Origin: Polytrichum commune
Taxonomy: Eukaryota > Streptophyta > Polytrichopsida > Polytrichales > Polytrichaceae
DNA: 64,000 bases
Assembly: GCA_950295325.1 (NCBI GenBank)
Contig: OX485803.1
Location: 56,745,554 to 56,809,553, forward strand
Direction: 5' to 3'
A program made the translations under genes and the position numbers. This document shows positions 3,562-38,538 of the stretch, one piece after another (positions within the stretch are counted from its first letter, which is position 1; each line of letters begins with the position of its first letter). The notes beneath the pieces are model-generated. The model did not search any database and was not told where the DNA came from. It worked only from the letters and a program-made list of their open reading frames with translations.

Positions 3562-4921
3562 CACTTGGCTCGTGTGTGAATTGCGCCTTAGTTCTCTTAG
3601 TCCTCCCCTCAATTGGTCACTATGAATTTATGGTACACCCTTAACGAATGATCCAAAATTAAGGAACATAAGTCATATTGGGCCTCTCTATGTACAAAAA
3701 TGTTCGATTGAGCTACATATATCTTACTTTAATCATTGTGTCATAATTAACACTATCTAATTGACTCATATATTTTGGGTGTACTTTTCAAATATGTTAA
3801 ACACCTTGATGTTATTGAAGAGTTAACTTAAAATTATACGTCATGAGTGCCATTGGATGCGAATATTGACCTGGTATTTTGATCACTAATGTCTCATTTG
3901 AGTGTAATTTCATTGTCCCCATGACATGAGATAATGTATTAAAACAAAATCTTAATGTTATCATTTTTAGGTTTGATGAAGCTCATATAAATTATGTACA
4001 TGATTGTACATCGAGCCCTTGGTCCTTTGAATAGTAAGGCATATCTCACAATATACTTATCAACATGGTATGATGTGGATGCTAATAACATTACTTAGCG
4101 ACATGGGTTCTCAAAATATAACTATGGGATGTTGGGAGTCCAGTCAGAATTTGAGTCTCCTTGTGCAACTTTTCAAGCATCCTATTATTATATTCTAAGG
4201 GCCCACAAAACAAGAGTTGAACATGTGATGTAAGTACATGGGACATGGCCCCTTTGAGAAACAATACAATCCTCCAAAGGTTTTAAGCAATAGGAGCATA
4301 AGATGGAGGACAATGGAAAACGAGGTATCAATAACTTCATTATTATTTTTCTACATAGTTTGTTAACAAACATAAAACTTACTACAATGATTATCCCATT
4401 TAGTGCATTTTACTATTCGGAGTTACACAATGTTATAATTATTTGAGGAAAATGAAATGTTATACCAAGCACAGTCATCTATTTCTATAATGTCCGAACC
4501 ACCTATTGAACTTTTGTTAGTAGAAGTTGAACTCCCAAGTAAGATGTTAAAGCATTGCATAATTCCAAATAATATCATGCACTAGTTGGGATAATCAATG
4601 TAGTTCAAATGTTTAAGATAACCTTCTATGTACAATGCATCTCAAAATTGATCAAGTATTTTGAAGTTTGAAATTGTAGTGTCTAGTTGAGCAAATTGAC
4701 ACATGTAACTCCCAAGATAAAAGTTTGATTAGTTTCTATTCCAAGTTAGGGGCCTAAATTAGTAAGATACACACATGTCAATGCATGCTCATATACAAAT
4801 GGAAGGTTAAAATTATCTTCCTCATTTGATCGGTTTTGTAAATGTATAGCATGATTACTCTCAAATATGTATGTGAGCTAATGTGGGCATCTTATTCAAA
4901 GAACTTTCAGAAGTACTTAAT
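3562..4921. repeat. 1.36-kb dispersed repeat, copy 1
   Basis: Nearly identical to 21355-22715 in the same orientation at an offset of about 17,794 bases; only scattered substitutions and 1-bp indels are visible. Homology starts at CACTTGGCTCGTGTGTGAAT and stops at AGAAGTACTTAAT in both. It contains a family 1 MITE at the equivalent place. There is no coding frame, and the two ends show no inverted repeat, so the class is unknown. A SINE with its target duplication begins three bases past the right edge of this copy. Confidence 0.9.
4382..4603. mobile_element. MITE, family 1 (222 bp)
   Basis: The ends are CTACAATGATTATCCCATTT and its inverted counterpart ending CAATGTAG. A second, inner inverted motif follows (CGGAGTTACACAATGTTATA on the left, GCATTGCATAATTCCAAAT on the right). 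The element forms a foldback and has no coding capacity. Copies: 22176-22397 (within repeat copy 2) and 31132-31354. Confidence 0.8.
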
Positions 4922-20393: not shown

Positions 20394-20512
20394 TTCGTCA
20401 TGCTCATCTAAAATAAGTAACCTTCTTGAGGGAAGAAACAAAAACACACCTCTTCATTCTGCCTTATAAATTTTAGCCTCTTGGACTTAAAGTTCACGAC
20501 AATTGTTCTGCA

Positions 20513-20592
20513 ATTGACATCATGCTACAAATATCAGAAACCCGTGAGATCCAGTATCTCATGATCCCTCGTATTTGCAACATGATGTCAAT
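20513..20592 (-). ncRNA. candidate MIRNA precursor hairpin, locus 1
   Basis: The ends ATTGACATCATG and CATGATGTCAAT pair perfectly, and pairing continues for about 35 bp around a short loop. Read as minus-strand RNA, five internal differences are G-U pairs; on the plus strand they would be A-C mismatches. The minus-strand 3' arm (CACGGGTTTCTGATATTTGT then AGCATGATGTC) matches that of 37326-37404 at all but one of about 33 positions, while the 5' arms have diverged. This is the pattern of paralogous miRNA genes. I do not recognise a known mature miRNA. Confidence 0.5.
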
Positions 20593-21020
20593 AACAAATA
20601 TTCGAAGGCAAACCAAGTAGGCCTCCAAACAAATCAGAGAGGCATCCTCCACTGCGGATAGAACCCGCCAGCATGAATCACCACAACAACTTACAAACAG
20701 AGGCCGCTAATGCAAGCCCCTAGGGTTTCCAGCAATTTCTTCAAGGCTAAGCAGGTGCCCGGATCTCCAAAGCTCAGGGTGACAGGAGAAGCACACATAT
20801 CTCTTACAATGTGCTGATGAGAGCACAAGATCTCATATATAGCAACAACTTTAAAAAAACTTGGAGAAGAAGTCTGAAGAAGAACACAAAAAGAGAAGAA
20901 GACGAAAACTTTGTTGTGCTTCGCAATACTTCGTCGACTACGCGAAGACGACGGGGTCAAGGATGAAAACGTAAGGATGAGAAGAGGGGAATTTGGGATG
21001 ATGGATGAAATCACGTTCTA
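20593..21020. other. non-repetitive stretch flanking the hairpins
   Basis: The part near 20630-20670 is weakly similar to 37480-37515 (CAGAGAGGCATCCTCCACTG versus CAGAGAGTCATCATCGATTG), so the homology of the two hairpin loci extends outside the stems. A minus-strand frame of 107 codons (20691-21014) has no recognisable motif and could be part of a non-coding primary transcript. Confidence 0.45.
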
Positions 21021-21030
21021 GGAAAGTCCT

Positions 21031-21155
21031 CTTAGGGCCCCTTCACACATGAGACTGAACGCCCGTGACCATTGCATTCTAAGATCTCTTATTGGTCGAA
21101 AAGGCCGACACGGTCCAAGTTCACTTCACACTAGAAGGTGAAGGCCTAAGGGTCC
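21031..21155. repeat. short inverted-repeat element
   Basis: CTTAGGGCCCCTTCAC at the left is mirrored by GTGAAGGCCTAAGGG at the right, about 125 bp apart. It resembles a small MITE. A similar TAAGGGCCCCTTTA motif occurs near 63930. Confidence 0.4.
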
Positions 21156-21220
21156 AAAGAAATTATAATGAACAAAAAGTCTTTCTGGATTCTTACATTA
21201 AATATTATAAATAAGGTTCC

Positions 21221-21289
21221 ATGGTTTGGCGGAATTTGTGTCAAGTCCACCTCCAAGAGGTAGGCTTGACGCAAATTCCACCAAACTAT
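21221..21289. ncRNA. 69-nt near-perfect hairpin
   Basis: Arms of 33 nt (ATGGTTTGGCGGAATTTGTG onward, and AGGCTTGACGCAAATTCCAC onward) pair around a three-base loop in CCTCCAAGAGG. The only differences between arms are transitions, giving G-U pairs on one strand or the other. It could be a young miRNA or siRNA foldback, or a minimal MITE. It lies 66 bp left of the 1.36-kb repeat copy 2. Confidence 0.45.
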
Positions 21290-21354
21290 GTCAATTACAT
21301 GTTAGATATGGTCTTCAGATGAGAATCAAGGCTCTTACAATTACATTGTCATGG

Positions 21355-22715
21355 CACTTGGCTCGTGTGTGAATTGCCCCTTAGTTCTTTTAGTCCTCCC
21401 CTCAATTGGTCACTATGAATTTATGGTACACCCTTAACGAATGATCCAAAATTAAGGAACATAAGTCATATTGGGCCTCTCTATGTACAAAAATGTTCAA
21501 TTGAGCTACATATATCTTACTTTAATCATTGTGTCATAATTAACACTATCTAATTGACTCATATATTTTGGGTGTACTTTTCAAATATGTTAAACACCTT
21601 GATGTTATTGAAGAGTTAACTTAAAATTATACGTCATGAGTGCCATTGGATGCGAATATCGACTTGGTATTTTGATCACTAATGTCTCATTTGAGTGTAA
21701 TTTCATTGTCCCCATGACATGAGATAATGTATTAAAACAAAATCATAATGTTATCATTTTTAGGTTTGATGAGGCTCATATAAATTATGTACATGATTGT
21801 ACATCGAGCCCCTTGGTCCTTTGAATAGTAAGGCATATCTCGCAATATACTTATCAACATGGTATGATGTGGATGCTAATAACATTACTTAGCGACATTG
21901 GTTCTCAAAATATAACGGTGGGATGTTGGGAGTCCAGTCAGAATTTGAGTCTCCTTGTGCAGCTTTTCAAGCATCCTATTATTATATTCTAAGGGCCCAC
22001 AAAACAAGACTTGAACATGTGATGTAAGTACATGGGACATGGCCCCTTTGAGAAACAATACAATCCTCCAAAGGTTTTAAGCAATAGGAGCATAAGATGG
22101 AGGACAATGGAAAACGAGGTATCAATAACTTCATTATTATTTTTCTACATAGTTTGTTAACAAACATAAAACTTACTACAATGATTATCCCATTTAGTGC
22201 ATTTTACTATTCGGAGTTACGCAATGTTATAATTATCTGAGGAAAATGAAATATTATACCAAGCAAAGTCATCTATTTCTATAATGTCCGAACCACCTAT
22301 TGAACTTTTGTTAGTAGAAGTTGAACTCCCAAGTAAGATGTTAAAGCATTGCATAATTCCAAATAGTATCATGCACTAGTTGGGATAATCAATGTAGTTC
22401 AAATGTTTAAGATAACCTTCTATGTACAATGCATCTCAAAATTGATCAAGTATTTTGAAGTTTGAAATTGTATTGTCTAGTTGAGCAAATTGACACATGT
22501 AACTCCCAAGATAAAAGTTTGATCAGTTTCTATTCCAAGTTAGGGGCCTAAATTAGTAAGATACACAAATGGCAATGCATGCTCATATACAAATGGAAGG
22601 TTAAAATTATCTTCCTCATTTGATTGGTTTTGTAAATGTATAGCATGATTACTCTCATATATGTCTGTGAGCTAATGTGGGCATCTTATTCAAAGAACTT
22701 TTAGAAGTACTTAAT
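21355..22715. repeat. 1.36-kb dispersed repeat, copy 2
   Basis: Direct copy of 3562-4921 with scattered substitutions. The right boundary falls at AGAAGTACTTAAT, after which the Tc1-like sequence begins. The left boundary has no shared flank with copy 1. Confidence 0.9.
22176..22397. mobile_element. MITE, family 1, within repeat copy 2
   Basis: Equivalent to 4382-4603. The inner motif is better preserved here (CGGAGTTACGCAATGTTATA). It was present before the host repeat was duplicated, so it is not an independent insertion. Confidence 0.8.
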
Positions 22716-22772
22716 ATATGTTGTGTAGAACATGTGTGCACGAAATCTTGGCCTTCCCTATTAGTATAGAAA

Positions 22773-23813
22773 ATGACGAGTGCATTATCTAAAGATAAGC
22801 AAGAGAATGCATGTTCTATGCTTGAGAAGAGGGTATGGGCATAGAGAAATAGCAAGGATTTTGAACGTGAGTGTGGGGAATGTATACAACTTAAGAAAGA
22901 AGTATCTTATTTGTGTAAATTGTCCCATAAAGGTAGGCCACGATTATTGAATAAAGATATGGAACAGTCATGTGTGCTATAAGTGACAAGGGGAAGAGTC
23001 AATATTGCTCTAGATGTAGCAAGACATGTAGAACATGACTTTGGGATATTAGTGAATGCTCAAATTGTGAGGTGTGCACTTCAAAGTAGTGATTTAAGTT
23101 CACAAAAAAAAGGAAAAAAGAAGCCACATCTTTATGACAAAAATGTCAAAGTGTGTCTTGACTTTGTTAGAGTCCACAAACACTAGACCATGGATGACTG
23201 GAGTAAAGTAGTTTTCTCAAATGAGTAAAAAATAAACAATTTTTTTTTCAAATGGGATGTCTTGGTGTTGGACACATGACCTGAGGGAGATATCCATGTG
23301 AATTGTTATTCAAATAGTAAAGCACGGTGGTGGGGGATTTTGATTTGGAAAAGCATGTGTATTCATGGACATGAATTGGTATGCAAAGCAAAAAGGGGCA
23401 TAAACCAACATCACTATCATGAAATCTTAGAACAAAATGTTTGTAGGATAATTCAAAAGTTTCATTTAGACACTTCTCGTGTCATATTTCAACAAGATAA
23501 TGTCCATACACACACAACATAGACGCTTCAAGAACGGTTCTCAAGGCAAGGTTTCACTCTTCTACCTTGGCCACCTCAATCCCCTTATTTGAATCCCATT
23601 GAACATCTATGGGCAATTCTTAAACTGCAATTAAATCAATATAAGAAACATCCAAAGGGAATAATAGAATTGTGGGATGAAATAGTAGAAAGCTTCTATT
23701 CTATCACTTTAGATGATTGTAGGAGGCTTGTAGAGGGTATGCCATGTCGAATTGCAATTGTAATAGTACCAAAAGGAAAGTGGACAAAATATTTAGTAAT
23801 TTTCTTCTTGTAG
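22773..23813 (+). pseudogene. decayed DD34E Tc1-type transposase
   Basis: A reading from ATG at 22773 (MTSALSKDKQ) to the stop at 23813 covers 347 codon positions, normal for Tc1 transposases (about 340). Visible in order are a helix-turn-helix (GHREIARILNVSVG, shifted one frame at about 22837-22925), a GRPR hook, VTRGRVN, the first catalytic block VVFSNE where D is replaced by N, the second block FQQDNVHTH, and LNPIEHLW. Exactly 34 positions separate the second Asp and the Glu (DD34E), and LVEGMPCR and KWTKY follow near the C-terminus. There are at least three in-frame stops (about 22981, 23184 and 23520), another near 23226, and frameshifts, so it is dead. Plant mariner elements are normally DD39D; this type resembles fungal and animal Tc1 proteins. 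Clear TIRs were not found. Confidence 0.85.
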
Positions 23814-24166
23814 TTACAAAATTCATGAAGTGTACATGCAAACTTTGAATATTTTCTTGCAACTTGTTGTTTAATCTCTATTTTGGATGGAATTTTCTGT
23901 AAGTATGTACAATATTACGCATAGCATTACAATAATGTCTCCATTTGCAAGTTTATACGTTTATTTTCTCTCTGTGATTCATTCTTTGAAAAGTTTTGAA
24001 ACACGTGATCAGTTATGAGAGGCATTGTAAGGTAGATGAGGCTAATTCGGTTAGCTTCCTTAATCATACACCTATTTTTGGCTCATAATCAATGCTACAA
24101 TCACTTTAATTCGGGGGTGAGTAATACACAATGATTTAGCCACCACCCTTGATGATATTTGGGTTA
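23814..24166. other. 3' flank of the Tc1-like relic
   Basis: AT-rich non-coding sequence. The Tc1 right terminus should lie in the first part, but no convincing inverted match to the left side was found. No gene. Confidence 0.5.
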
Positions 24167-24561
24167 GAGCATCCTCAATCGGTCTAGGTAAAGCTCACTG
24201 CAAACCAAAACCTATCTTTTGACTGACCTAAAATTAGAAACTGAAATTACCATCATTAGAAGCACACCTAAATAAACGTGAGATATTTCTCAAGAAAAAA
24301 GAATTGTAAAAATTTGACGTAGGTGAAATCCCTCATTGAAAACACCACATTTTCAAAATTTAGAGGGAGTGCACCAAATCTTGCTTAAAAATGGAAAGAT
24401 CCTCCCACACTCCCTCCAAATTTTTGACATTTAGAGGGAGTGTGGGAGGATCTGTCCATTTTTAAGCAAGATTTGGTGCACTCCCTCTAAATTTTGAGCA
24501 ATTTTAAGCAAGATAGGTCTTGGTTTGCAGTGAGCTTTACCTAGACCGACTGAGGATGCTC
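24167..24561. mobile_element. palindromic MITE with TTA target duplication (PIF/Harbinger-like)
   Basis: Starts GAGCATCCTCAATCGGTCTA and ends with the inverse, finishing GAGGATGCTC. TTA is duplicated at 24164-24166 and 24562-24564. The arms pair over most of the 395 bp; the inner part contains TTTAGAGGGAGTG in both orientations, so the transcript would be a long hairpin. A TTA duplication is characteristic of Tourist/PIF-Harbinger elements. Confidence 0.85.
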
Positions 24562-25319
24562 TTAGTCACCTTCACAAAAGTCAAACTACACCCAACATCC
24601 TCCATAATTAGGAGTGCTATCCACTGAGCTATGACTAGCTTGGTTTTCAAACTTGAGGTGGGCAAATTAGGAGACAGCATGTGATTGTGAAGTGCCAACC
24701 AACTTGTATTGTGGGTATTTTGTAATGAAAAAAGAACAATAATAAAAATCGGTAACATTTATCTTACATGTGACCACTTTAGAGACATGATACAACCAAT
24801 ATTAGTTTTAAACTTGATTTCATTGGCAAATGCCCCATGTAGAAGATGCTAATGATGTTGTCCACTCACACAACATTGAACGATGAAAGGGTACCCCCTC
24901 TATAACACCACATTGAAAGTAGAGAATCTTTGATTCTAGAGCCTATATGAACACCATCCTTAACTCCGATTTCAGCGATTTCAAATTCTTTGGTCCTAAT
25001 TCGTAATTGCTAACCTACTCAAGCTTCTAATGCTCAAATCCATCGGATGAATGATTCCACAAAGCTAGAGGCGACCACATTAACCTCATCTACCGTACAT
25101 ATAGGAAGCTTAAGTGATAGCCCTTGGAAAAAGTAATATATCGGAAACAACCCTGAAAAGCAAATGACCACTATTTGGTCGCTTGGTTTATGGGAATCTG
25201 AATGGGGACCATTGATTGGAGTGGATGCGTTTAAGGTGGGGTACCTTGCAACTTACTCAAGGGAATGATTGAATGAGGTGAGTGGGGCCAATTTGGTTAC
25301 TTATTTTAATAGAACACTA
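24562..25319. other. gene-free spacer
   Basis: AT-rich, no supported gene or foldback. The last 100 bp may include degraded upstream LINE sequence. Confidence 0.5.
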
Positions 25320-27830
25320 TTATTTTGTATTTTAAATGGAGTGTGGTCAAAACATTATTCAACTTGATCAAGAGGGCGGTTGCAAACGGAAGAATAAGGC
25401 GAATTACCTTACCAAGGGGGAAAAAACAACATAGCATCTCACAATACGCGGATGACTCATCATTTATGATTAGAGGGGAGAAAAAGTACGTGGATGAACT
25501 AGTGTGCTTGCTCAAGGTATTTAGCGCAACTTCCGGAATGGAAATTAACTGGGAGAAGTTGTGCGCATATCAATTTGATAAATATACGCATAAACTTGAG
25601 TGGTTGAATGGCTACAACTGGCAGTGGGCAGAAGAAGGGGATTTATCAAAATTGCTAGGCACCCCCTTCGAACTTAACCTCAACATTCAGGACGTAGATG
25701 ATTTCCTTTACGAGATAATTGCCAAAAAGCTTGATTACTAGAGTATTATGAAACTCTCACTAGCGGGGAGAGCAGTGATTTGCAATCAAGTCTTACTCTC
25801 TACCCTCTAGTTCTTCATCACAATATGGGGGGGGGGGTCAAATAAGATCTTAAGAAAGATAAGAAGTGCAATTTGCAACTATCTTTGGTCTAGGAAGGAA
25901 CAACTTACACACACTAGGGTGAGTTGGTGAAAATGTTGCATGAAGAAGAAACACGGAGGATTATGGCTAGTTGACCCGGAGGCCGCTAAGAATAGTCTTC
26001 TATGCAAGTGGATTGTTAAAGCTATGGAACCTGGTGAATTTAACCTTCAACTTATGCTTATGTATAGGTTGGCAAGGTTCAACCCACAAAGAGGAAGTAG
26101 ATGGGGGTTAGCCTTGATTGGTTCACGAGCAAAATACACCAAGGATTTTTGGGTTCCAAGATTTGGGGCCATATCAGTAAGGCATGGAAGGTGATGGTTA
26201 AAGGAGTTTATCAAATCCCACCCCGCACCCGGATAGAATTATTGCACTCCAACATCTAGTGGTCGGACAGAGTGGAACTTCTCACTAAGGGGTTTGCTTA
26301 TGCTAAAGGCCTCCACCTTTACCGCAAAGGAATCCGGTATGTGAATGACATTTGGGATAGCACACAACAATATTTTCTTACGTGGGAAAGAGCGAAAGGA
26401 AAAATTAGGCTCACAAATCCGGAGGTAGGAGATTGGGAGGAGTTGATTAATAAGGTCTCTAACGAATGGCGCCACCTATTGGAAGAGGAAGAGGACACCA
26501 CATACCCTGGCCAATGGCTTGGGTTCTAAGTTGATGTAGAAGAAGTCCCAACTTTTGTGTTTAGGTGTGATACGGATTTTACGCCCACATGCCTGCAATG
26601 GTATAACCTCACGCTACCTATCCCTGTTCAATGCTATATGGTAGGCACCCACTCCCCTTGTCTTAGGGGATGGGAATGGCCTCTTGGGGAAATTGAGGGT
26701 TTCTTTCATAAGGTCAAGGTTATTCACACTAGTAGAGGGCCTAAGAAGGAAGGGGTAAAACAAGAAATTATTTTCTTCTATGGCAAAATGGCCACTCTAA
26801 GGTGAGACCTAGATTGGTGGCGGTGGATTGATGGTGGCCATTTCCTTTACTACACCACTAACGATGGTCGGGACTCTATCATCAATAGGAACCTGAGCAC
26901 CACTCGTGTGGCAGACAAATGGCAGGGTTACCTTCCGGTCAACTATAGGTTATGTTGGTTGCAAGTTTGGGACCCTCTCCGGTCCAGGAAAGAAGTTGCA
27001 TTCATCTAGTCGAATTGGCACAAGGCGGTTGTTGTCGATGAATGGCGAGCCCACATTGTGCCGGCGTCCATTTCTAAGCAATGTGTATTATGTCTCCCCA
27101 ACACGAGTGAATCGGTCAAGCATAAATTCTGGGACTGTATTCAAGCTAGGAGGACTTGGAGATAGGCTACGTTCATTATGCACAAACTTTGTGGAGTCAA
27201 AACGAGCAATTATGACAACTTCAATTGGAAGCAAGCTATGTTTGGGGAAAGAATTCCATATAAATTCTGTAAAATGATCAAGATTTGGCACCTCTTTAGA
27301 GGCATTAAGTTGTGGCACATTTGGATTGAACGCAATGACAAAGTGTTCAACCATGAACAATGGCACGAGTCTAAGGTCAAGCAACAGATATGGGACGAAC
27401 TTGTCATCTAAGCCAAAGCGGCTTGGAATTGGGTGGTAAAACAAATCAAGATTAATAGACTTTCCGTGGCGGCCATTCTCCAAGGCTTTGATAAAATTCG
27501 GGGCGCTAGGAATGTCCTTCGTAGGAGGTACAATTTACGTATTGAGTGGAGCTGGCGTAGACACAATAGGTAGGCGGCTTGGGCCTTCGTTTGGTGTTGG
27601 CTTGGTGGTTTGGGGGTTGTCCTTGGCAGGTGGGGTGGGGGTGGTCCTTGATATGGTGGTTTCAAGGGGTTGTCCTTGGTTGGAGTTGCTTGGTCGCCTT
27701 CCTTTACGTGGTAGTGTCTCACGCCCGAGGGTCCCCACCTCCCCTCGGCGAGGGTGCATGTTCTTGCTTTTGGTTATTTCATTTTTGGCATTGGTTGTTT
27801 TGGCCTTTTGTCTCAAAAAAAACATTATTC
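25320..27830 (+). pseudogene. 5'-truncated LINE (non-LTR retrotransposon) relic
   Basis: Translations in shifting frames give the end of a reverse transcriptase, with QYADDSSF as the catalytic YxDD box (about 25440), then SATSGMEINWEK, LAGRAVICNQVLL and KKKHGGLWLVD. Further on is a zf-RVT module: WRAHIVPASISKQCVLCLPN followed by SVKHKFWDC, a CxxC...HxxxxC zinc knuckle (about 27040-27140). This order is typical of plant L1-type ORF2 C-termini. The first part of RT and the endonuclease are missing, and there are several stops, frameshifts and a poly-G run at 25828. The 3' end is probably near TCTCAAAAAAAACATT (about 27815). A target duplication was not identified. Confidence 0.85.
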
Positions 27831-29311
27831 AAATACTATTAGCCATTTCATTTTGATTATATTAGTATTTTGTTTCACTTGAGTTTTTCAACCTGAATCT
27901 ACTAGTGCAGTGCTCTATTATGAGAAGAAGAAAAAAACTATAATTATGAATAGGATTTGGCTTATTCTTGGTCCCACCCAACATACAAACTCAATTGAAA
28001 TATGTTATGTAGCTTAACATTGCTAATGGCCCTTTTCCATGTTGAGGCCTGGTCCGATCTCCAAGCCAAGCTACTTCGTATGCCATAATTGGGCCATGCA
28101 CAACTCTTACCTTTCCAAGGAAGGTTTGGGGACTGTTGCTTGACCTCAATGGCTACAAATGTGGAGAATGTAGAATAAATGGCAAAGAAGAATGGACTAT
28201 AAATGGAAAAGAGAAATGGGAAACAAGGGTGTTCGCATTAATAAAGTAGATTATGTAGGAAGAATGAGCCTTACTCAGTGAAGAAGAGTGGCTTGCTTTT
28301 ATTTCCGAGGATGCACACACTTGGTCTCAAGCCTAGAAATCAAAGTGGGCTACCTCCTTCATAAAACGGGCACATGCTCCAAAGTTGGGCATGATAAGTA
28401 TGTTGGCCCAACTAGGAGTGCAAATTGGGCCTCACATGAAAAGTCTCTAAGCAGCTAGGCGATGGTCTCTTTCCAAAGGAAGAGACCACAATTAAGAAAC
28501 TTCGATAATTCGTACCCGCTTGTTGAAAATGCCTCAATACACAACTTGAGTGCTCCCCATAAATGGGGAATCCCATAATTAAAGGAAAATTATGCTCGTT
28601 TGATACATGGTCCCAAAAAAAGCAACTCAGGAGCTAAGTAATGTTATCTAAGTTGTGGATCCAAGAAACTACACCCAAAAAAAAACACATGTTTTTCAAG
28701 AGACTGGACTACATGCTCGAATTTGTGAAGTGTTTTAGATTCAATGGTCAACATAATTGGTTTTCTTTTGGGGGGAAAATCTATATGATCATTTCAATCA
28801 AGAAAAATAGGATGTTTACTATGATAATGAATAAGACATTCCTATGAGCTCTAGGAAGTATGTGGAAATGGCTTTTGTCTCATTTTAGATTTAGAACTTA
28901 TCTTGTCCTAATCGCATGTTTAGTACCCTAGAAGAAGTGGCTCCATTTTAGACTTGTTTACTAAACTTTGTGGGTGTGAAGATAGATTGCATTGGCATTA
29001 TGGCATCGGAGGCTCAAAATTGGTGCATGGAGGGTTCAAGGTGAGACCATCATGAGGACTATCACCCAACGGTTGGATTGGCAACTTCAAAGCTATATGA
29101 TATAATGTAGCACCATGTTTCCCCCTCTAATGGACGACTCTAGTGGAGGTTAGAGATGAAAATGAATATTCAAACTCCATTCTATGTATTTATTAGTTGA
29201 CACATATAAAAATCACTAAACTGCCAAGAAATTGCATTGTTTATGGTACAATATCATGGGCATATTTATAGTGTGACTTACTTTTTGATGCCTTTTATGC
29301 ACTATAGTGTG

Positions 29312-29313
<2 letters not shown>

Positions 29314-29359
<46 letters not shown>
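29314..29359. repeat. (AG)23 microsatellite
   Basis: Perfect AG dinucleotide run. Confidence 0.95.
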
Positions 29360-29361
<2 letters not shown>

Positions 29362-30464
29362 GTCTTTTCAAAACTTTTACAAATTATGAACTTCCTCTTT
29401 TCAGAGGCCAAATCCTTCAACTTCTTCTTCATTGCAATACAAGGGTAGGTGGGTGGGTGGGTGGGAATTTCCACAAGACTCTTTCTATGTCCTTGCATCT
29501 TCCTACTTGATAACACAATAACATTTTGCATAATAGAGTCATTTGCAATTATATTCAACTGGATGTGATGTATGACATAAACAGTTTGTGTCAAAATCTA
29601 GTTTGCTTTGCAAGAATATGAACCTTACTTAGAGTTTATGGTATCATATGGTATCTAACAACAAATGTTTGATTCCGATTGTCCCAAGCCTTGGTATTTA
29701 ATCACCTACCTTCTTGCTTCACTTCAAAGTACATACACTTAATCCACCACATGTATGGGGTACTTACAAGGGAAATGTTCCTAGTAACTTCAACCAATAA
29801 ATATGCATAAAATGTCATAATCACAAATCATCATTATATTGAAGGTGTGAAGGGCCTGCCTCACCTGTGCCCAACAACCAACCAACAAACACTTGAGGAT
29901 TAGTTACGTACATGAGGTAAATAACAGCAAGACCCAGTTGTTATCCATGTTGCACACGCTTAATCCATTTCAAATGCATCAAGGTATTTCAAATTACAAC
30001 ACTCATTGTAAAACGGCATATGGGTGTTCAAACATGTTCCTTGGCCATGATTGGGTTACTCCAAGTAGAATACACCTCTTGGTGATGAGCCCTAGTTTCT
30101 CTTACTTTTAGTTGTAGCACATATCTATTACCCAAGTGTGTATACACAAAGCTCACCACACCTCTCACTTGCGTGAATGGTAAAAAATAGGCTCTTTTTA
30201 GGGTTAAGGGTTTATATTGGAGTTCTTACCTATGGAAATAAACCCTATTTTTATCATGGATTAGAGACGTGGGTCAAGTCTGTTACTATGGTTATTTATT
30301 CTATTCATCTACATCCTTGTTACATCCATTTCATGGTAAGTATGCTTTCATTCCATGTATGTAGACTTAGGATCTCCTTAGCTTATAGTCATCTGTTTAC
30401 AAAGAGGACCATTACTAGGTAGATTGGTGTAAGAGTTTAAAATCAAGATTTGAGTGGCATGGCA

Positions 30465-30467
<3 letters not shown>

Positions 30468-30511
<44 letters not shown>
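30468..30511. repeat. (AG)22 microsatellite
   Basis: Perfect AG run 1.15 kb from the first one, same orientation, with different flanks. Confidence 0.95.
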
Positions 30512-30512
<1 letters not shown>

Positions 30513-31131
30513 ACCAACCTCTAATGTTGGTGTTAATGAGGGATGCTTCACCTTGATTATTGCCATTAGCTTCTAGGTGGTTCATAATATACACCATCAC
30601 GAATTGAAACAATGTGGTATCCTAACAAAGAGAGATTTGGGGGAAATTCTTATTTTCAATTTGATTGAAATTCTCTTTTTAAAATAAATAAATAATCCTA
30701 ATTCTAGATTCAAAACCGTCTAAGTAGGACAAGTATAAATTGGATATCAATTTGTTGGAAGTCTCTCAAATGCACATTTTCCCCCAATATATTGACCTAC
30801 AATGTAGGACTCTGATGTTATATAATGTAGGTTAGAATACAATGTGCACCCACATTATTACCTCCAATATTCTTAGTGTTGGTTTCCTTTGGCCCATATT
30901 ACTTACCATAAACAATGTAGTGGGGTGGTGGGGTACTCACCCATTTAAAGGAAACACAATATATGTTTTAATTTTTTTTAAATATCATTTTAATTTTAGA
31001 AAATCAACAATCACTCACTTCAACATGATTAATTGGAAATTCATTCCTTTTTGGTGATCAACTTCCTATGGTTGTTTGATCACAAATTTTCCTTGACAAT
31101 CATCTATGAAAGCAACAATGCAAAACATGGA

Positions 31132-31354
31132 CTACAATGATTATCCCAATTAGTGCATGCTACTATTTGGAGTTATGAAATGCTATAACAATTGAATGTG
31201 AATGTAATACTCTACCAAGCAAAGTAATTTTTGCTCTATGATGTCCAAACAACCTATTGAACTTTTGTTAGTAAAAAATGAACTCATGAGTAAAGTTGTT
31301 ATTGAACTGCGTAACTCCAAATATCAACACAAACTAATTTGGATATTCATGTAG
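31132..31354. mobile_element. MITE, family 1
   Basis: Left CTACAATGATTATCCCAATT; right TTTGGATATTCATGTAG, the decayed inverse. The inner motif is GGAGTTATGAAATGCTATAA and its inverse GCGTAACTCCAAAT. It is more diverged than the pair at 4382 and 22176, so it is an older insertion. Confidence 0.75.
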
Positions 31355-31600
31355 TTGAGAGCAAATCTACCACTAGGACTATTATCATAAGGTAAGTGGG
31401 CCTGAATTGGCCATTTTAGTCTCCTCGATTAGCTTCTACAAGGACACTAACACACATATAATCAATAAGGTATCAAAGCTTGATCTCCTTTCACTTGTCA
31501 TCTTGAACAAGCTTGCACATGCTCCTACATAAAGCAAGCGGCCAACTCTTGCACTTATTTCGGTTTGTGACCTATTGTGGACACTTAAATTTAAGGGTAT

Positions 31601-31917
31601 CATTAGTAGAAAACTAGGCCAAAAAGAACTATAGCCGAAATCGGTTGCGGTTGTTTTGATCAGCCTGATACGCAGTTGCTAAATGACTACAAATTTGATA
31701 TTTTTGGTTTAGTGATCAAAATTTTAGGAATTCGGGGGCGTGTAATATACCGTTGGAAAGGTCTTGAAAATAAATTTCCAACCATGTATTACACGTCCCA
31801 ATTTTTTTTAAATCAGTTGCAAAATGAAAAAGAGAAATTTATAGTCATTTAGCAACTGCATATCAGGCTGGTCAAAAGATCGGCTACGGTTTTTTTGAGC
31901 ATAGTTTTCTACTAGTG
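31601..31917. mobile_element. CACTA-type miniature element (317 bp)
   Basis: The right end is the complement of CACTAGTAGAAAACTATGCT; the left end reads CATTAGTAGAAAACTAGGCC with one change in the CACTA motif. A 3-bp target duplication TAT lies at 31598-31600 and 31918-31920, as expected for CACTA. Subterminal inverted sequence continues (GATCAGCCTGATACGCAGTT against its inverse), so the element is a near-complete foldback. Non-coding. Confidence 0.85.
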
Positions 31918-33439
31918 TATAATGGACACAATACATATGTTAATTGAGATTTTTTGTTTCTTTTCATTTTGAGGCATAGCGTGACCTATGTGCTCACATG
32001 GCATGTCCATCATGTAGCACACCATGACATAAATAAGTGAATGGCAACTCCAACATAGGTAAGCCCATAGAGTTGTTGATTTTATATTAAATTAATATTT
32101 ATATTATATATAAGGCATTGGAAGCAAGCGTGGCATGTAACTTGTGTTCCCACATTTCCAAAATCATGAGGTGATAGGCAAGATCCCTGGGGGGTGGACT
32201 TTCATTGGAAACCTAAATGACGTGTGTGGGTGATTGTGAAATAAAACCCCTTATATACAAAACATTTATAGAGAAAAAATGTCTACGTACTAAAAATAGG
32301 CTAGAAAGTGGACTTATGAATTTACACTAAGCTTTTCATTTTAATGTGATAATTGCCTACACTACATACACAAAATATAAATAATGAAATAAACATGCCT
32401 TTATTACATATATAATCCACTTTCACTTTCCAACAAGAAAGTCATTGAACATTTTGTCATCCTTAAGATATCAATCATGATAATATGACTCTAAAACACA
32501 TGTCATTTGGATGAACTAAGGTAAATTGGATGAAACCAACACTTCTATTGTTAATTTCCTTCTAAACCTTAGGGGCCCCTTTTGTACATCTATATTTAGT
32601 TTACATTATTTATAGCCTTTTCCAATGTACACAATAGCAAAAAATGATACCTCTCCCTTAAATATATTATGTACACTAATGCCTCAAATGGTTCTCCTTC
32701 CTACACTCATGTTAGTTTGTACGTGGTATGAAGAGTCCACCCCCCGGGGCAAGATTATAATAGGTTATTTAAGAAGCCCATTATCTCATGAAGAAGGCAG
32801 GACATGACCGAGATGAATAGTTCAAATGGATGCCCTTATGTGACCACAATAGGTTATGGAAATTTTTATTGGAGATTCCATGAGAAATTGCAATTTGGTC
32901 ACTTCTAAATCCACTTTGAGTCCCTAATCCAATGAGATAATTGGCATGCCATCAACATTCTCTCAAGTACATGTTCTTGTGATATATGAGCTAGAATCAA
33001 ACGGTTTTTTTGTGAAAACCTACATAAAGAATCTTATGTGAAAGTACCTAAAGTTACCAAAGTGTCAACAATAGTTCTAGAAAAGTGGTGCATACATGTG
33101 ATTCAGGTGGAGTTTAGCCCATATAGAACCCCCATAGGCTAAAGCAAAATCTTCCCAAAATCGCCTTCAAGGATTCAGTTCAAATCCATGGCTTGATGAA
33201 AAAAAAATCAACATCTCTTATGGTAGAGTTGAACATACAAATTTCATCTCTATAAAGTTAGGGTTCTTTACACAAATTTTCAACTATCCACATGTCCCAA
33301 TCTAGGAGATTATAATGTAAACATGTATGCTAGTATAATCGGACAATAGTGACCGCATGGACAAAAAACGTACACCTCAGCCTTTAAGGGGTCCCATTCT
33401 TGGAAGCTAAAAAGTAGAGGTCCCAGGTGAGTATTGGGA
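31918..33439. other. gene-free spacer
   Basis: AT-rich sequence without a supported gene or strong structure. Confidence 0.5.
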
Positions 33440-33850
33440 GAGGTGTACATTATGACATTTAGAGTAGCACATTGGGATACTTTAGATGATAGTCTTGCAC
33501 TTTTAATATGCAAGGGGAAGATATCTTTGAGCGAACTAATTGCAAGTGTCATGTGTTTACAATTTAGTATGCAAGAGAAAGATATTCTTGAGCATACTAA
33601 TGGCCTATGTCATTTGTGTACACTTTAGTGAACTTGTAGATTATTGTGTAACATAGGCATGCACCTCACAACATTATTGAGCATACTCATGCCAAGATAT
33701 CAGTTAGTGCACTTGAACGCCAAATGTCATGAGGTGACACTTATGATGAAGTTGTTAATCATTAGTGTAACCTAGCATACGCCTCAAAATAAGGTAAGTG
33801 ACATTATTACGCAGGTGACACTAAATATCATAAACAATGTAGTGCACTAG
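33440..33850. repeat. dispersed repeat C, copy 2
   Basis: Homologue of 12362-12760, with the same internal 60-bp tandem units (GAGCGAACTAATTGCAAGTG, then GAGCATACTAATGGC) and a right end GTGACACTAAATATCATAAA. Non-coding. Confidence 0.7.
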
Positions 33851-36800
33851 ATTAGGAGTAGAATGATTCTTGTGTGGACCCAAAATGGTTATTTGTAAAA
33901 GTGGTGGCCCAAAAAGGATGTAGTGATAAGCCAAGTGCAATGATTGGTTGGATAGGTCATGTTTCACATCACTTGGGATCACTTTTGGATGCCATTGAGT
34001 TAATTGTTTTGTGTGCATTTGTATGCAGAGTAAGATATTTTGATGCTCAAATTAGGGAGACTCTAATGTACAAGTAGGGGATTTGACTTACTTGCCTCTT
34101 TGAGAGAATGCAACTATTTCTTTACAAGGGATAAAATTACGAAACAACTTGCATTCCTCGTCATTTGCTCTACTCCATCTCTGAAAAGTATTGCACAAAT
34201 TTCAAGACAGTCATCTGGCCGAATCATCTTGTTATCACCATTGTCCATTTTTCTTACCTTAAATGAGTACATTCACATCGTAACATCCAAGTAACAGAGG
34301 AACACATACAAGCATATTCGTCACAATGTCCAACAGCACCCTAAAGATTACAGGAGTGCAGCTAAGTTACATTCAACATCTTCATCTCTCAATACAACAA
34401 CGGGTGTAACTGAATAGAGCATGCACTTGGTTCAAGGTTTACTTCACAATTGTAGTAGGAAGCCAGCCAATTTTTAGGAGTTGCATTTCAACTAGCCCAC
34501 CTTTGTCCAGACTCCAGACACCAATGTTAGGAGATTCCTACCAATATTTATGGCTTAGAACCTTCTTACATTAAATTGACGTAAGATATTCATACTGGGT
34601 TGAGGTCAACTGGGACTGTTGACTTAATTTTTATCACAAGCCTGAATCTAAGCCAGCAGCTAGATTTCGGGTCGCCGTTGTAAATAGAAAAGCTTAGATG
34701 CTCTAATCGATACCTACAACACGATTTCTAAGTGTTCGTCTAGATTTATGGATGGTTTTTTAAGGAGGATTCCCACTCATTTCTTTAATACAAAGCATTC
34801 ATCAGTGGCAAACTTTTCTGGAAAGAACTCTAATATTGCCAGAACCCTTACCACATCCTGGGTCTGACACGTGATGAATGAAAGGAAGGCTAATTACTAA
34901 AAGTGCTCCAAAAGACTTGATATGGTTTCCAATAATTCAATATTTTTTTGTTAAAACAACTAACTCAACGCAAGGGTATCTGACCACAAGGGACTAGAAA
35001 ACCCTTGGTCGCGTCGAGAGCCTTGCCGCACATACTGATTACAGAACTGGCACTGATTGTGATTCCGGGCTTTAACTGAGCTGCCAGTCTGTTTGCACAT
35101 GGAGCACTGCTAGCAGTTTAGAATCGCTTCTTTCACCCACTTCTTATCCCTCCTGGCACAAATCCTTATATGGTCTTCATAGCCAATGTTCAAGCTCTGT
35201 TGAATGCTCCAAGTCGATGGAGTTTGAGTATGGTGAAACTGGAAGGCATGTTGAGAATTCAAATGAACCCACAATACGAATTATGAATATGGACCAAGCA
35301 GGATGTGTTGAACGTAGATTGAAGAGGAGCCAGGTGAACTCCACTCTCTTATCTTTCTCACTTGCATCAAGCAGCTAATATTGTGTCACAACTACCAACA
35401 TGATCACAACTCCCGTCAATTTTTGAAGTGAATGATGGAATTTTCAAAATCCAGTGAACCAAATGCATGAGAAGCTAAATTCATATTAATACAAATCCTT
35501 CAACGCCAACTCATTCTGAAGCCTTCGAAGTCAATCGCAATTCATGGCTAGTGGTATAACTAAGCAGATTATAGCGAACCATTATGATTGTTGGGTTTGA
35601 TCAGAAACAACCCACAGAGGGATGAGGTGTGGCTTCTAAGTACACTAATCCAAAACTCATCGTTTAGCAGATTACAAGAGGCTCTAAACATCTACCATTT
35701 TCTATCCTTGTGTGGTGTCTCACCCGATAAAATCAATCTCAAAATTCTAACCATGCTCAATTGCTACTTTTGAAATCGCTCCTAACATGCTATGGAAGCC
35801 GTGAAGGAGGCTCCAACGTGCCAGTTACAAGACAGTTTCAGTCTTGTTACTGGAGTGCAGCAAGGTCTAACTCAAAGAGAGTAACTCTATGCAAGAATGC
35901 CAATCGAGAAGATATGTCCTATACATCAAGACTTCCATAGCATGTTAAGACGTGACTTAGCTGTTCAAACTTTCAAAACATATACTAGATAAAAGTACAA
36001 TTTGTGTATCTGCTGAGGAAGCAGTGATTGCATTGTCTGCAAATCCTTCCAGCCTAAGATTGCAGCCAGAAACAACATGATATGCAATTGCCAATATACA
36101 AAAGAGGCCGTTGTAAGAGTTTACCTTGAACAAGAGATGTAGAACTCGCACCAGAATTCTATAAGCAAAAGAACTGCTTTTGACATAGCTACCAGCCAGA
36201 AATTGGTATAGGTTATGTCTCAAGATGTCAAGTGGTGCGTTTAATCTACTGAGCCTGTCCAGCGGCGTCTAATGAGAATATAGCAGAGAAGACTAAGGCT
36301 CAAACCACCAACTGGTTCAGTGTGGTTGCTTTTCATTGTTGCTGCAAGAGTCAACACAGAAATTAGGGCCAGAGAATGTCACACTAAATATTGTGTTAGA
36401 CTTTCTGTAATCACCTGAACCTATATATGTGCATGCAAACTGCATCCACCCACCTCGATGCTATACTCAAGGTTCCCAACCCATGAAAGTTGAGGTTTAT
36501 GTGGTCTTTAGAACGACAAGCTGAAAGACTAACACATTCTTGCGTGAATGCAAGAGCCAAGACATAGATAGTATTACTTGATACCCTTCTTTATTTCACT
36601 GCAACTTGGCCAATCTCTCATAACTGACCAATCAATGCAGCAGGCAGGTAAGGAGATTGAGGAGAAAGGATATGCATCAATTTCTGTCTAATGTATACAC
36701 CCCAGAATCTATCTCGCACATCACCAGACAAATGTAGGAGAGAATATGAAACAGGGGGAGAAACCCACCATGTCTTTGTAGAAACTCTTAATCCATAGCT

Positions 36801-37325
36801 TCCCCTGCATATTTATTACCAATGCAACCAGGATCATGGTACCCTCCTTCCTTCCACTCCTTGCCATGGCCAAGTAATGATAGCTTGTGCATTTGCAGGA
36901 TTGCATCACATCACAAATACTATATGAAATGCAACTTGTGCATGTCAAAAGGGCGCCACAAATCTTGCAGGGACTGATGATGAAAACATAAAGGAAAAAT
37001 ATAATCTTATATTTGATAAAAGTAAGTGCTTCACATCTCAAGGGCGTTCAGAAATATCAGAGGCCTAAAACCCTAGGAATGGACCCACTAACTCTAGCAC
37101 TTGTAAAATGAATCCTAAATAATCCTTCCTGCTTCAGAACTATGTAATGATAGAAGTGTCTTAGAAAGCTCCATAAGTCAGAGACTTTTCGCTAAATTCT
37201 AGAGAGATACCTCCAGGCACTTTCTATACAAGGAAATCATTGTGGGTTGGCAAAAAAAGTAGGAATTAGAGCTCTTTATGCAGTCGACACACTACCAATT
37301 GACTTCATCACTTACGTATCTGCAG
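33851..37325. other. non-repetitive region downstream of the NOSIP gene
   Basis: Unlike most spacers here, 34.1-37.3 kb shows no foldbacks or internal duplications and is less AT-rich. Short open frames lie on both strands (for example 35957-36223 and 36721-37041 on the minus strand), none recognisable. It may hold a non-coding transcription unit or an extended 3' region of the minus-strand gene at 37621-38538. This is inference. Confidence 0.4.
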
Positions 37326-37404
37326 TCGACATCATGCTACAAATAGCAGAAACCCGTGAAGATTCATTATCTCATGGTTTCTAGTACTTGAACCATGATG
37401 TCGA
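37326..37404 (-). ncRNA. candidate MIRNA precursor hairpin, locus 2
   Basis: The ends TCGACATCATG and CATGATGTCGA pair perfectly and the stem continues for about 35 bp. As minus-strand RNA it has at least two G-U pairs where the plus strand would mismatch. Its 3' arm (CACGGGTTTCTGCTATTTGT then AGCATGATGTC) is nearly identical to locus 1. It lies 217 bp past the stop codon of the NOSIP-like gene on the same strand, so it could be processed from that gene's 3' transcript. Confidence 0.5.
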
Positions 37405-37620
37405 AAACAAATTGAAAATTCCCACCCCAAGCAACAACCTCAACTCCCTTCATCAGTAAGCCAAAAAAGAAATGAAGTTCAAAGCACTTCAGAGAGTCAT
37501 CATCGATTGCAGATGACAAACCAACAGGTCAAACATATTTTTCTTCCCATTTTTTTTCTACTGAACCATCTCCGAAAAAAGTTTCATTGATGGTATTAAA
37601 CTCCTAATGATGAAATTAAT

Positions 37621-38538
37621 CTAAAGTCGCGTTGTGGGTCGGGAGAGACCCATGCCCGTGCCGCTACCAACATGTTTGAAACTAGTGGCTTCCAGGTTTT
37701 CATCATGTCCAGAGAATCCTGTTCCTCCCTTCTTCAATATTACCATTTGTTTGGGTTTACACGGTTTATCACAGGACAAGCACACCTTGCCTGGTGCTAT
37801 GAACTGGTCAGCACATTTCTTGCAGAAGACATGTCCACAAGAGCCAATAGCAACAAGTGTAGAAGTGTTCGTGAACGTGGTTGAACATGAAGGACAGAGA
37901 TACTTAAACCCATCAAGATCCACTTCCTTCTTTTCTCGGTATGGCACATCTGTGAAGACAACAGGGAACAGGTCTTTCAGCTTCAACTTCTCATTTCCTT
38001 CTGGACAGCATGTGTCTTGGGAAGGAGCTTGTACCCTTTCCACTGCTTCAGGCGTTGCTGATGGAAGCCAGAAAGCCTTCATTGTCCGCAAAGCCTCTTC
38101 CTCATACGAAGTTACCCTCACACTGTTAGCTCCATGAAACACATGGCGGTCATCCGGATGACCTGTCACCTGCTGGTGAGGTACAGCCGAGTTGTTTTGC
38201 CTGTCAAATGCATCCAGCTCTCGCTGCTTCTCCGCAGTGATCTTCTCAACCTCCTCTTCCTTATCCTGTTTCTGTTGCTGTGCAAATGACGCTAGCTTTC
38301 TCTTCATATCCTTTTTCTGCGCTAGCAAGCACTCAAATATACATTCTTTGCAAAACAGATGCCCTTTGCTACAGCTTAAAGGGTCGATAAGAGGTTGTAA
38401 GCATATACAACACGCATCAAACGGTTTGATAGAGTCTTTCCCCAACCGCTCCTTCTGCGTCCCATACCCTAGCTTCTTCCTCTCATCGTACGTGAAGAAC
38501 GCCAAATCATTGTTGTTCTTCGAATGTCGCTGCGGCAT
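37621..38538 (-). CDS. CSU1: NOSIP-type RING E3 ubiquitin ligase (CSU1 homologue), 305 aa
   Basis: Single-exon gene from ATG (MPQRHSKNNN) to TAG; full length for the NOSIP family (about 300 residues). The N-terminal zf-NOSIP region is followed by a RING/U-box-like module (Cys43-Cys46, Cys56, His60, Cys63, Cys66: CCICLQP, SKGHLFCKEC). Residues 78-113 are a charged Lys/Glu/Gln coiled coil. A second RING-like module spans 215-256 (CPSC, GSCGHVFCKKC, CLSC). The C-terminus ends in a basic, Gly-rich tail. Animal NOSIP is a nuclear E3 ligase found with spliceosomes. In Arabidopsis the homologue CSU1 (COP1 suppressor 1) ubiquitinates COP1 and limits it in darkness. All zinc ligands are present and the gene looks intact. 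The leader may contain an intron, with a donor-like CAG|GTATCT near 38845. Family assignment is firm; the symbol is by homology. Confidence 0.93.
   Translation of the reverse strand: MPQRHSKNNNDLAFFTYDERKKLGYGTQKERLGKDSIKPFDACCICLQPLIDPLSCSKGHLFCKECIFECLLAQKKDMKRKLASFAQQQKQDKEEEVEKITAEKQRELDAFDRQNNSAVPHQQVTGHPDDRHVFHGANSVRVTSYEEEALRTMKAFWLPSATPEAVERVQAPSQDTCCPEGNEKLKLKDLFPVVFTDVPYREKKEVDLDGFKYLCPSCSTTFTNTSTLVAIGSCGHVFCKKCADQFIAPGKVCLSCDKPCKPKQMVILKKGGTGFSGHDENLEATSFKHVGSGTGMGLSRPTTRL

Follow-up and report, generated by a model that had tools for sequence, protein, structure and literature searches.

Two paralogous hairpins in the moss Polytrichum commune, a candidate MIRNA pair antisense to a protein-kinase and immune-receptor family

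What are the two similar hairpins that lie 17 kb apart in the genome of the moss Polytrichum commune, and does the sequence that they share have a target? The window analysed here is the 64,000-nt stretch C1:56745554-56809553 (contig OX485803.1) of a 408-Mb assembly of 64 contigs (GCA_950295325.1), in which C1 to C7 measure 42 to 78 Mb each. We hold, with a probability of about 0.65, that the hairpins are a paralogous pair of MIRNA genes, undescribed as far as searched, which would be transcribed from the minus strand, derive from a protein-kinase gene and yield microRNAs (miRNAs) of the 3' arm (3p) that damp a family of kinases and of protein kinase-nucleotide-binding site-leucine-rich repeat (PK-NBS-LRR, or PNL) receptors. 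The initial annotation, made by inspection, had placed the two minus-strand hairpins at 20513-20592 and 37326-37404; both are present, with stems slightly longer than first drawn. The hairpins and their arms are as follows.

20507-20598, minus strand: hairpin 1, candidate MIRNA foldback, one of the two genome copies found; fold -47.7 kcal/mol, z -9.36
37318-37412, minus strand: hairpin 2, candidate MIRNA foldback; fold -42.4 kcal/mol, z -7.96
20511-20533, minus strand: 3' arm of hairpin 1, candidate mature 3p region, antisense to kinase codons AIDIMLQI; no mismatches to the 23-nt pattern described below
37323-37345, minus strand: 3' arm of hairpin 2, candidate mature 3p region, antisense to codons VDIMLQI, placed by matches of the 23-nt pattern and the motif
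20572-20592, minus strand: star-side 5' arm of hairpin 1, which repeats kinase codons in sense orientation and equals kinase L007 at 21 of 21 nt
37382-37404, minus strand: star-side 5' arm of hairpin 2, which corresponds to the kinase segment in sense orientation but has diverged, from alignment and kinase comparison

When each strand was folded, a check proposed with the initial annotation, both hairpins proved far more stable than shuffled sequences (equally good minus-strand shuffles, 0 of 200) and folded better as minus-strand than as plus-strand RNA, the latter reaching -31.1 kcal/mol (z -6.13) for hairpin 1 and -32.7 kcal/mol (z -5.91) for hairpin 2. Counted over 39 pairs and three internal-loop oppositions, the minus-strand RNA contains seven G-U pairs in hairpin 1 and four in hairpin 2, two basal ones being common to both, against one and zero A-C oppositions respectively, and this excess makes the minus strand the likelier RNA. 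Consistent with a miRNA/star duplex, the 21-nt 3p candidate from TATTTGTAGC has no unpaired bases in hairpin 1 and three in hairpin 2. Fold strength is not unique in the window, since a scan of 100-nt segments at 10-nt steps on both strands (12,780 folds) reached -38 kcal/mol at 12 distinct places, both hairpins included, among which hairpins 1 and 2 have the lowest GC content (0.36 and 0.39); it is their paralogy and kinase match that single them out.

The near-identity of the 3' arms noted at first inspection extends over 32 nt, TCACGGGTTTCTG[A/C]TATTTGTAGCATGATGTC, with a single difference in the pairwise alignment. Among the 39 stem pairs, 31 are invariant, four vary on one side into G-U, one has changed on both sides and three are lost in hairpin 2. 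The hairpins differ at 9 of 37 columns in the 5' arm and at 4 of 45, one of them a gap, in the 3' arm (Fisher p 0.07), and when the pair columns were shuffled 500 times, 240 of the shuffles also reached the one true double change. An earlier count of five differences at locus 1 and two at locus 2 that become G-U pairs is correct if the internal-loop T-G opposition of hairpin 2 is included. The accompanying claim of one-arm conservation with compensating pairing holds in part: the 3' arm is the less changed and most pairs are kept, but the compensation is mainly G-U tolerance and includes one true double change.

A genome-wide BLAST search with either hairpin returned three rows, one for each hairpin and one for the opposite arm within the query itself, a count that N stretches or skipped words could make too low. 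A pattern for facing GACATNATG arms found 17 places, both strands counted, against one in the control; no further family hairpin stands among them, and kinase-like arms occur only in hairpins 1 and 2, as far as the letters were printed. The many genome-wide copies that the initial annotation had named as the mark of a miniature inverted-repeat transposable element (MITE) were therefore sought in two ways, and just two copies were found, which speaks strongly against MITE identity on copy number, agrees with the low copy number of a plant MIRNA gene and favours the MIRNA reading. The loci share one further segment.

20610-20671 (locus 1) and 37470-37527 (locus 2), minus strand: upstream block of about 60 nt common to both loci, from local alignment

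The alignment score of this block is 40, which none of 200 single-base shuffles attained (best 39). Downstream, the flanks score 21, equalled by 194 of 200 shuffles, and outside the hairpins the loci otherwise hardly align. Flanks that align over about 60 nt alone indicate a local duplication old enough for flank divergence, and not a MITE.

No Rfam 15 family matches the window at its gathering score, and the best scores under threshold are 18.2 bits for MIR2670 (cut-off 117) and 21.9 bits for mir-26 (cut-off 57). A known RNA family is excluded on these grounds, even permissive matches falling far under the cut-offs, and the earlier impression that the sequence belongs to no recognisable miRNA family stands as far as Rfam is concerned. 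The hairpin core sequences, sought in the text of papers, turned up nothing beyond animal papers.

Target prediction, likewise proposed at the outset, identified a kinase family antisense to the conserved 3' arm. The 23-nt pattern TATTTGTAGCATGATGTCRAYTG, with up to three mismatches, occurs at 28 places in the genome, comprising the two hairpins and 26 others, and its reversed control at none. Seventeen of the 26 were fetched, and 14 of these lie in an open kinase frame on the complement strand, where the site codes for A(I/V)(D/N)(I/V/M)M(L/I/V)Q(I/V) and the catalytic loop, HRDLKP or a variant, follows in 13 (L008 ends before it); a kinase frame was not seen in the remaining three fetched places, L014, L017 and L023. 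Eight of the nine unfetched places are also sites of a motif search by back-translation. The 3' arm is thereby antisense to the codons of A(I/V)DIMLQIA, a motif that a large family of protein kinases carries directly ahead of its catalytic loop, and Pfam recognises Pkinase in all ten proteins of a first set as well as in L033, L031, L030, L007, L021 and L019. The degenerate back-translated motif RTNGAYATNATGNTNCARATNGC, a pattern independent of the codon choices of the miRNA, has 104 exact genome matches (control 0), of which 100 were listed; one is hairpin 2, whose plus strand still reads VDIMLQI, and the other 99 are the kinase sites on which target scoring is based. In genes of a cluster on C5 both mismatches to the candidate are G-U, by scoring in three of five and by reading in the other two. 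A 21-nt pattern shifted 10 nt loopward gave 19 non-self matches against 10 in the control, none of them at places of the 23-nt pattern, and a 16-nt pattern with two mismatches (282 and 248 matches against 58 and 63 in the control) was too loose and was left unused. A stop or shift stands near the motif in L008 and L038, and some target sites may lie in pseudogenes.

The likeness to the kinases extends to both arms. Both 5' arms continue ATGAGATA, which resembles kinase ATGCGATAC, and the match of hairpin 1 to kinase L007 over 21 nt is in the sense direction, the 3' arm being an antisense copy; a sense 5' arm together with an antisense 3' arm makes it probable that the hairpins come from inverted duplication of a kinase segment. 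Compared in 10-nt steps with the best sampled kinase, the 3' arm agrees at 9 to 10 of 10 positions over 20 nt and at 5 of 10 in the next step loopward, and its kinase resemblance is at background beyond about 25 nt. The kinase profile comprises 19 sequences, 14 of them from places fetched for similarity to the miRNA, and its consensus is biased accordingly; the wobble and score analyses use the motif list instead. Judged from these alignments, the most likely source of the foldback is a piece of a kinase gene duplicated in inverted orientation, of which just the miRNA-sized part was kept. MIRNA genes are reportedly born by inverted duplication of their target genes, as Allen et al. are said to have described in 2004, and the candidate pair is like these in that a coding segment of its putative target family is matched in the sense direction by the 5' arm and in the antisense direction by the 3' arm. 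In the youngest such genes the arms extend into parent-gene similarity, unlike the candidate pair, whose kinase resemblance is confined to the foldback and which would hence be older.

Predicted pairing was scored on a TargetFinder-like scale, with a score of 4 or less regarded as good, in a 21-nt and a 20-nt register. In the 21-nt register, when the better miRNA is taken for each site, a score of 4 or less is reached at 47 of the 99 kinase sites listed; hairpin 1 by itself reaches it at 34 and hairpin 2 by itself at 24, so that by computed score the candidates have the near-perfect complementary targets expected of a plant MIRNA gene. The corresponding numbers in the 20-nt register are 83 for hairpin 1 and 50 for hairpin 2.

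Some of the putative targets are immune receptors. Sequence past the kinase was available for 18 kinase loci, in unequal lengths (just 1.4 to 2 kb for L008 and L022), and in eight of them an NB-ARC domain follows the kinase on the same strand (L010, L011, L015, L016, L019, L020, L033 and L038). The NB-ARC is recognised by Pfam in all eight, the kinase by Pfam in six and by motif in L020 and L038. Leucine-rich repeats (LRRs) are recognised by Pfam in L032, L034 and L036, which continue L010, L016 and L019, and by eye in L015/L026, L033 and L038, this check having covered six of the eight NB-ARC loci (all except L011 and L020). Protein kinase, NB-ARC and LRR thus follow one another on one strand, and the PNL class is present in this genome. 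This class points to a moss, as does a light-harvesting (LHC) protein for which the top solved chains are 9vfj and then 8htu and 7xqp, the latter two being Physcomitrella patens entries. Among 126 scored of 466 candidate NB-ARC rows, at least three have one of the 99 motif sites no more than 12 kb upstream, the distance from the motif being 726 nt in two cases, and direct reading gave eight more. A P-loop frame on the kinase strand was not seen in the pieces read of L007, L008, L009, L012, L013, L018, L021, L022, L030 and L031.

Other architectures occur alongside these receptors. L013 carries Sel1 repeats, and in L018/L029 and L030 the kinase is followed by same-strand frames with a GHSLGG/GHGYGG hydrolase-like motif, seen by eye with Pfam silent on the pieces; in L030 an LRR array comes after the hydrolase-like frame. 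These could possibly be kinase-hydrolase-LRR genes related to a hydrolase-NBS-LRR class of liverworts that, according to Xue et al. (PMC3352924), was not obtained from mosses. By eye, the LRR frames of L026, L030, L033 and L036 are long arrays of near-identical repeats, which suggests recent repeat expansion in the receptors. An NB-ARC exon also lies at C1:56940251-56940955, about 130 kb past the end of the window and on the same strand as the hairpins.

The folds, the two copies, the lack of an Rfam match and the antisense kinase family together support the proposal of the initial annotation that these are undescribed MIRNA genes, an identity that we regard as strongly suggested; from sequence, the candidates are probably genuine MIRNA genes, with kinases and PNLs as their probable target family. 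The starting point would have been a short piece of a protein-kinase gene, about 45 nt, duplicated in inverted orientation, after which the locus would have been duplicated over 17 kb and the antisense (3') arm kept. We infer transcription of the hairpins and processing by a Dicer-like enzyme, which would excise a 3p miRNA of 20-22 nt, its exact ends being provisional, from TATTTGTAGCATGATGTC(A/G)A(T/C)TG. This miRNA would pair with the A(I/V)DIMLQI codons, located in the helix that precedes the catalytic loop, of a family with about 100 members in the genome, several of which would carry the target site in the N-terminal kinase of a PNL immune receptor. The likely effect would be silencing by cleavage or through secondary small interfering RNAs (siRNAs), which would keep the family down, presumably to the benefit of the plant. 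A bolder proposal, to which we give somewhat worse than even odds, is that mosses possess a master miRNA of their own for immune receptors, independent of that of seed plants and born from a kinase, which is tuned by G and U to the synonymous versions of the motif and restrains PNLs and their free-kinase relatives, perhaps via phased secondary siRNAs.

The closest known parallel is the miR482/miR2118 family. In a review (PMC6523410), its regulation of NBS-LRR genes, through pairing with the P-loop of the NB-ARC domain, is described as seemingly restricted to seed plants, and inverted duplication of the target is discussed as a possible origin. The moss candidates are similar in that a single miRNA family, being antisense to a conserved motif with degenerate codons, would have many nucleotide-binding LRR receptor (NLR) genes within reach, and differ in that their sites lie not in the P-loop codons of NB-ARC but in the kinase codons A(I/V)DIMLQIA, and in a moss. 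The sequences of the two families are not known to be related. The putative targets resemble the PNL genes of Physcomitrella patens, described as moss-specific (Xue et al. 2012, PMC3352924), in having protein kinase, NB-ARC and LRR in order; unlike the present reading, that paper and a review (PMC3645687) name, in their accessible parts, no miRNA regulating PNL genes. A bryophyte miRNA directed against NLRs or PNL kinases was not found in the literature searched, which included PMC6358896, PMC10721683 and PMC9291395 but few subscription journals, so that a moss small-RNA catalogue may already describe the pair. The parts available of a 2007 P. patens miRNA set (PMC1838911) give one putative protein kinase target (Dsk1) and do not mention NBS or disease resistance, and those of PMC5902766 name moss TAS3 and TAS6 loci without mention of NLR-derived phased siRNAs of moss. 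If the preferred reading is true, large receptor families came under miRNA control more than once and via a different domain, and such control is tied to receptor-family expansion and not to seed plants. The parent gene family, the hairpins and the putative targets are all in one genome, where the birth and tuning of a MIRNA could be traced.

Several observations weigh against the preferred reading, and some of them would suit a proto-MIRNA or relic, that is an inverted duplication of a kinase exon, copied once and decaying, which yields low-level siRNAs at most and has no maintained role. We consider this explanation unlikely. Every inverted duplication should start out with an arm antisense to its parent family, so that the match is explained by birth alone and is by itself no proof of maintained targeting; the arm asymmetry is by itself modest, three pairs are broken in hairpin 2 and the true double change is a single one. 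The 3' arms are also not clearly better broad targeters than an untuned copy would be. As a control, the antisense of hairpin 1's 5' arm, whose predicted range of targets is as wide as that of the 3' arm, has a mean score of 4.62 against 4.48 for the 3p in the 21-nt register and of 3.82 against 3.68 in the 20-nt register, and unweighted in the 21-nt register it reaches 98 of the 99 sites against 92. This control is itself equalled by 0 and 1 of 30 family members and has 43 and 28 of the 99 sites at 4 or less (20-nt and 21-nt), and the 3p of hairpin 2 is equalled by 2 of 30 members (20-nt) and 9 of 30 (21-nt), or by 5 and 17 of 30 unweighted. As regards the receptors, the best-paired kinases (the C5 cluster, C1:60.98 Mb, C6:14.61 Mb and C6:19.29 Mb) showed no NB-ARC, and the pairing scores of the eight verified PNLs are 4 or less in five and 4.5 in three.

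Three observations speak against a relic. The flanks align over about 60 nt alone, so that the duplication looks old, yet the 3' arms differ at one position in 32 nt; kinase resemblance is retained just over a miRNA-sized stretch; and the count of wobble-tolerant bases exceeds that of every family member. A base of this kind (G or U in the miRNA, where a transition variant is accepted via G-U) stands at seven of the eight codon-variable positions in both 3' arms, compared with two to six in 30 distinct family sequences and five in both 5' arms (P about 0.013 with columns drawn independently), a count that was devised after the data had been seen and is for that reason a further point to be set against the preferred reading. 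In the 20-nt register the 3p of hairpin 1 has a mean score below that of the antisense of every one of the 30 members, and in the 21-nt register one of the 30 does as well. With the 5'-arm control nearly as good and the wobble count post hoc, tuning is suggestive at most, and the sequence comparison is suggestive, to the same degree, of selection keeping the kinase match.

The surroundings of the hairpins raise a different explanation, in which they are a cis-acting structure in the 3' untranslated region (UTR) of a NOSIP-like gene that was copied once elsewhere.

37621-38538, minus strand: NOSIP-like open frame (Pfam zf-NOSIP, 9.8e-16), with its stop about 210 nt upstream of hairpin 2
20835-20841, minus strand: TATA-like element about 250 nt upstream of hairpin 1, a weak pattern match

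We regard such a structure as very improbable: hairpin 2 does follow the NOSIP-like stop at this short distance on the same strand, but no NOSIP-like gene was recognised by hairpin 1, where two minus-strand frames have no Pfam match, and the 23-nt antisense match to a kinase family is left unexplained. The 500 nt that precede hairpin 2 showed no TATA-like element; as a MIRNA gene, hairpin 2 may lie within the 3' UTR of the NOSIP-like gene or have its own promoter. A transposon or MITE remnant whose terminal repeats fold by chance is hardly credible, for although further foldbacks and duplicated stretches occur in the window, such a remnant would have to account for just two copies, for pairing so asymmetric between strands in G-U and A-C, and for a likeness to the kinase motif in both arms.

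Among other features of the window, a further strong hairpin at 21211-21310, about 600 bases from hairpin 1, folds at -49.9 and -46.9 kcal/mol on its two strands, and near-equal strands suggest a transposon foldback over a MIRNA. A foldback at 24353-24497, with 69-nt arms that are 97% complementary, is nested within an inverted repeat pair (24166-24218/24510-24562) and reaches -72.6 and -65.9 kcal/mol on its strands; it looks like a foldback or MITE-type element. At 23523-23810 a fragment matches DDE_3 (8.8e-7) and is Tc1-like, with a sequence that appears closer to fungal elements than to plant ones. The segments 3562-4542 and 21355-22336, 17.8 kb apart and 96-100% identical in the listed blocks, are a recent transposon or segmental copy. 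Elsewhere in the genome, C5:1751760-1846160 (L039-L042) holds an unusually large tandem cluster of at least 14 light-harvesting chlorophyll-binding genes of equal Pfam score.

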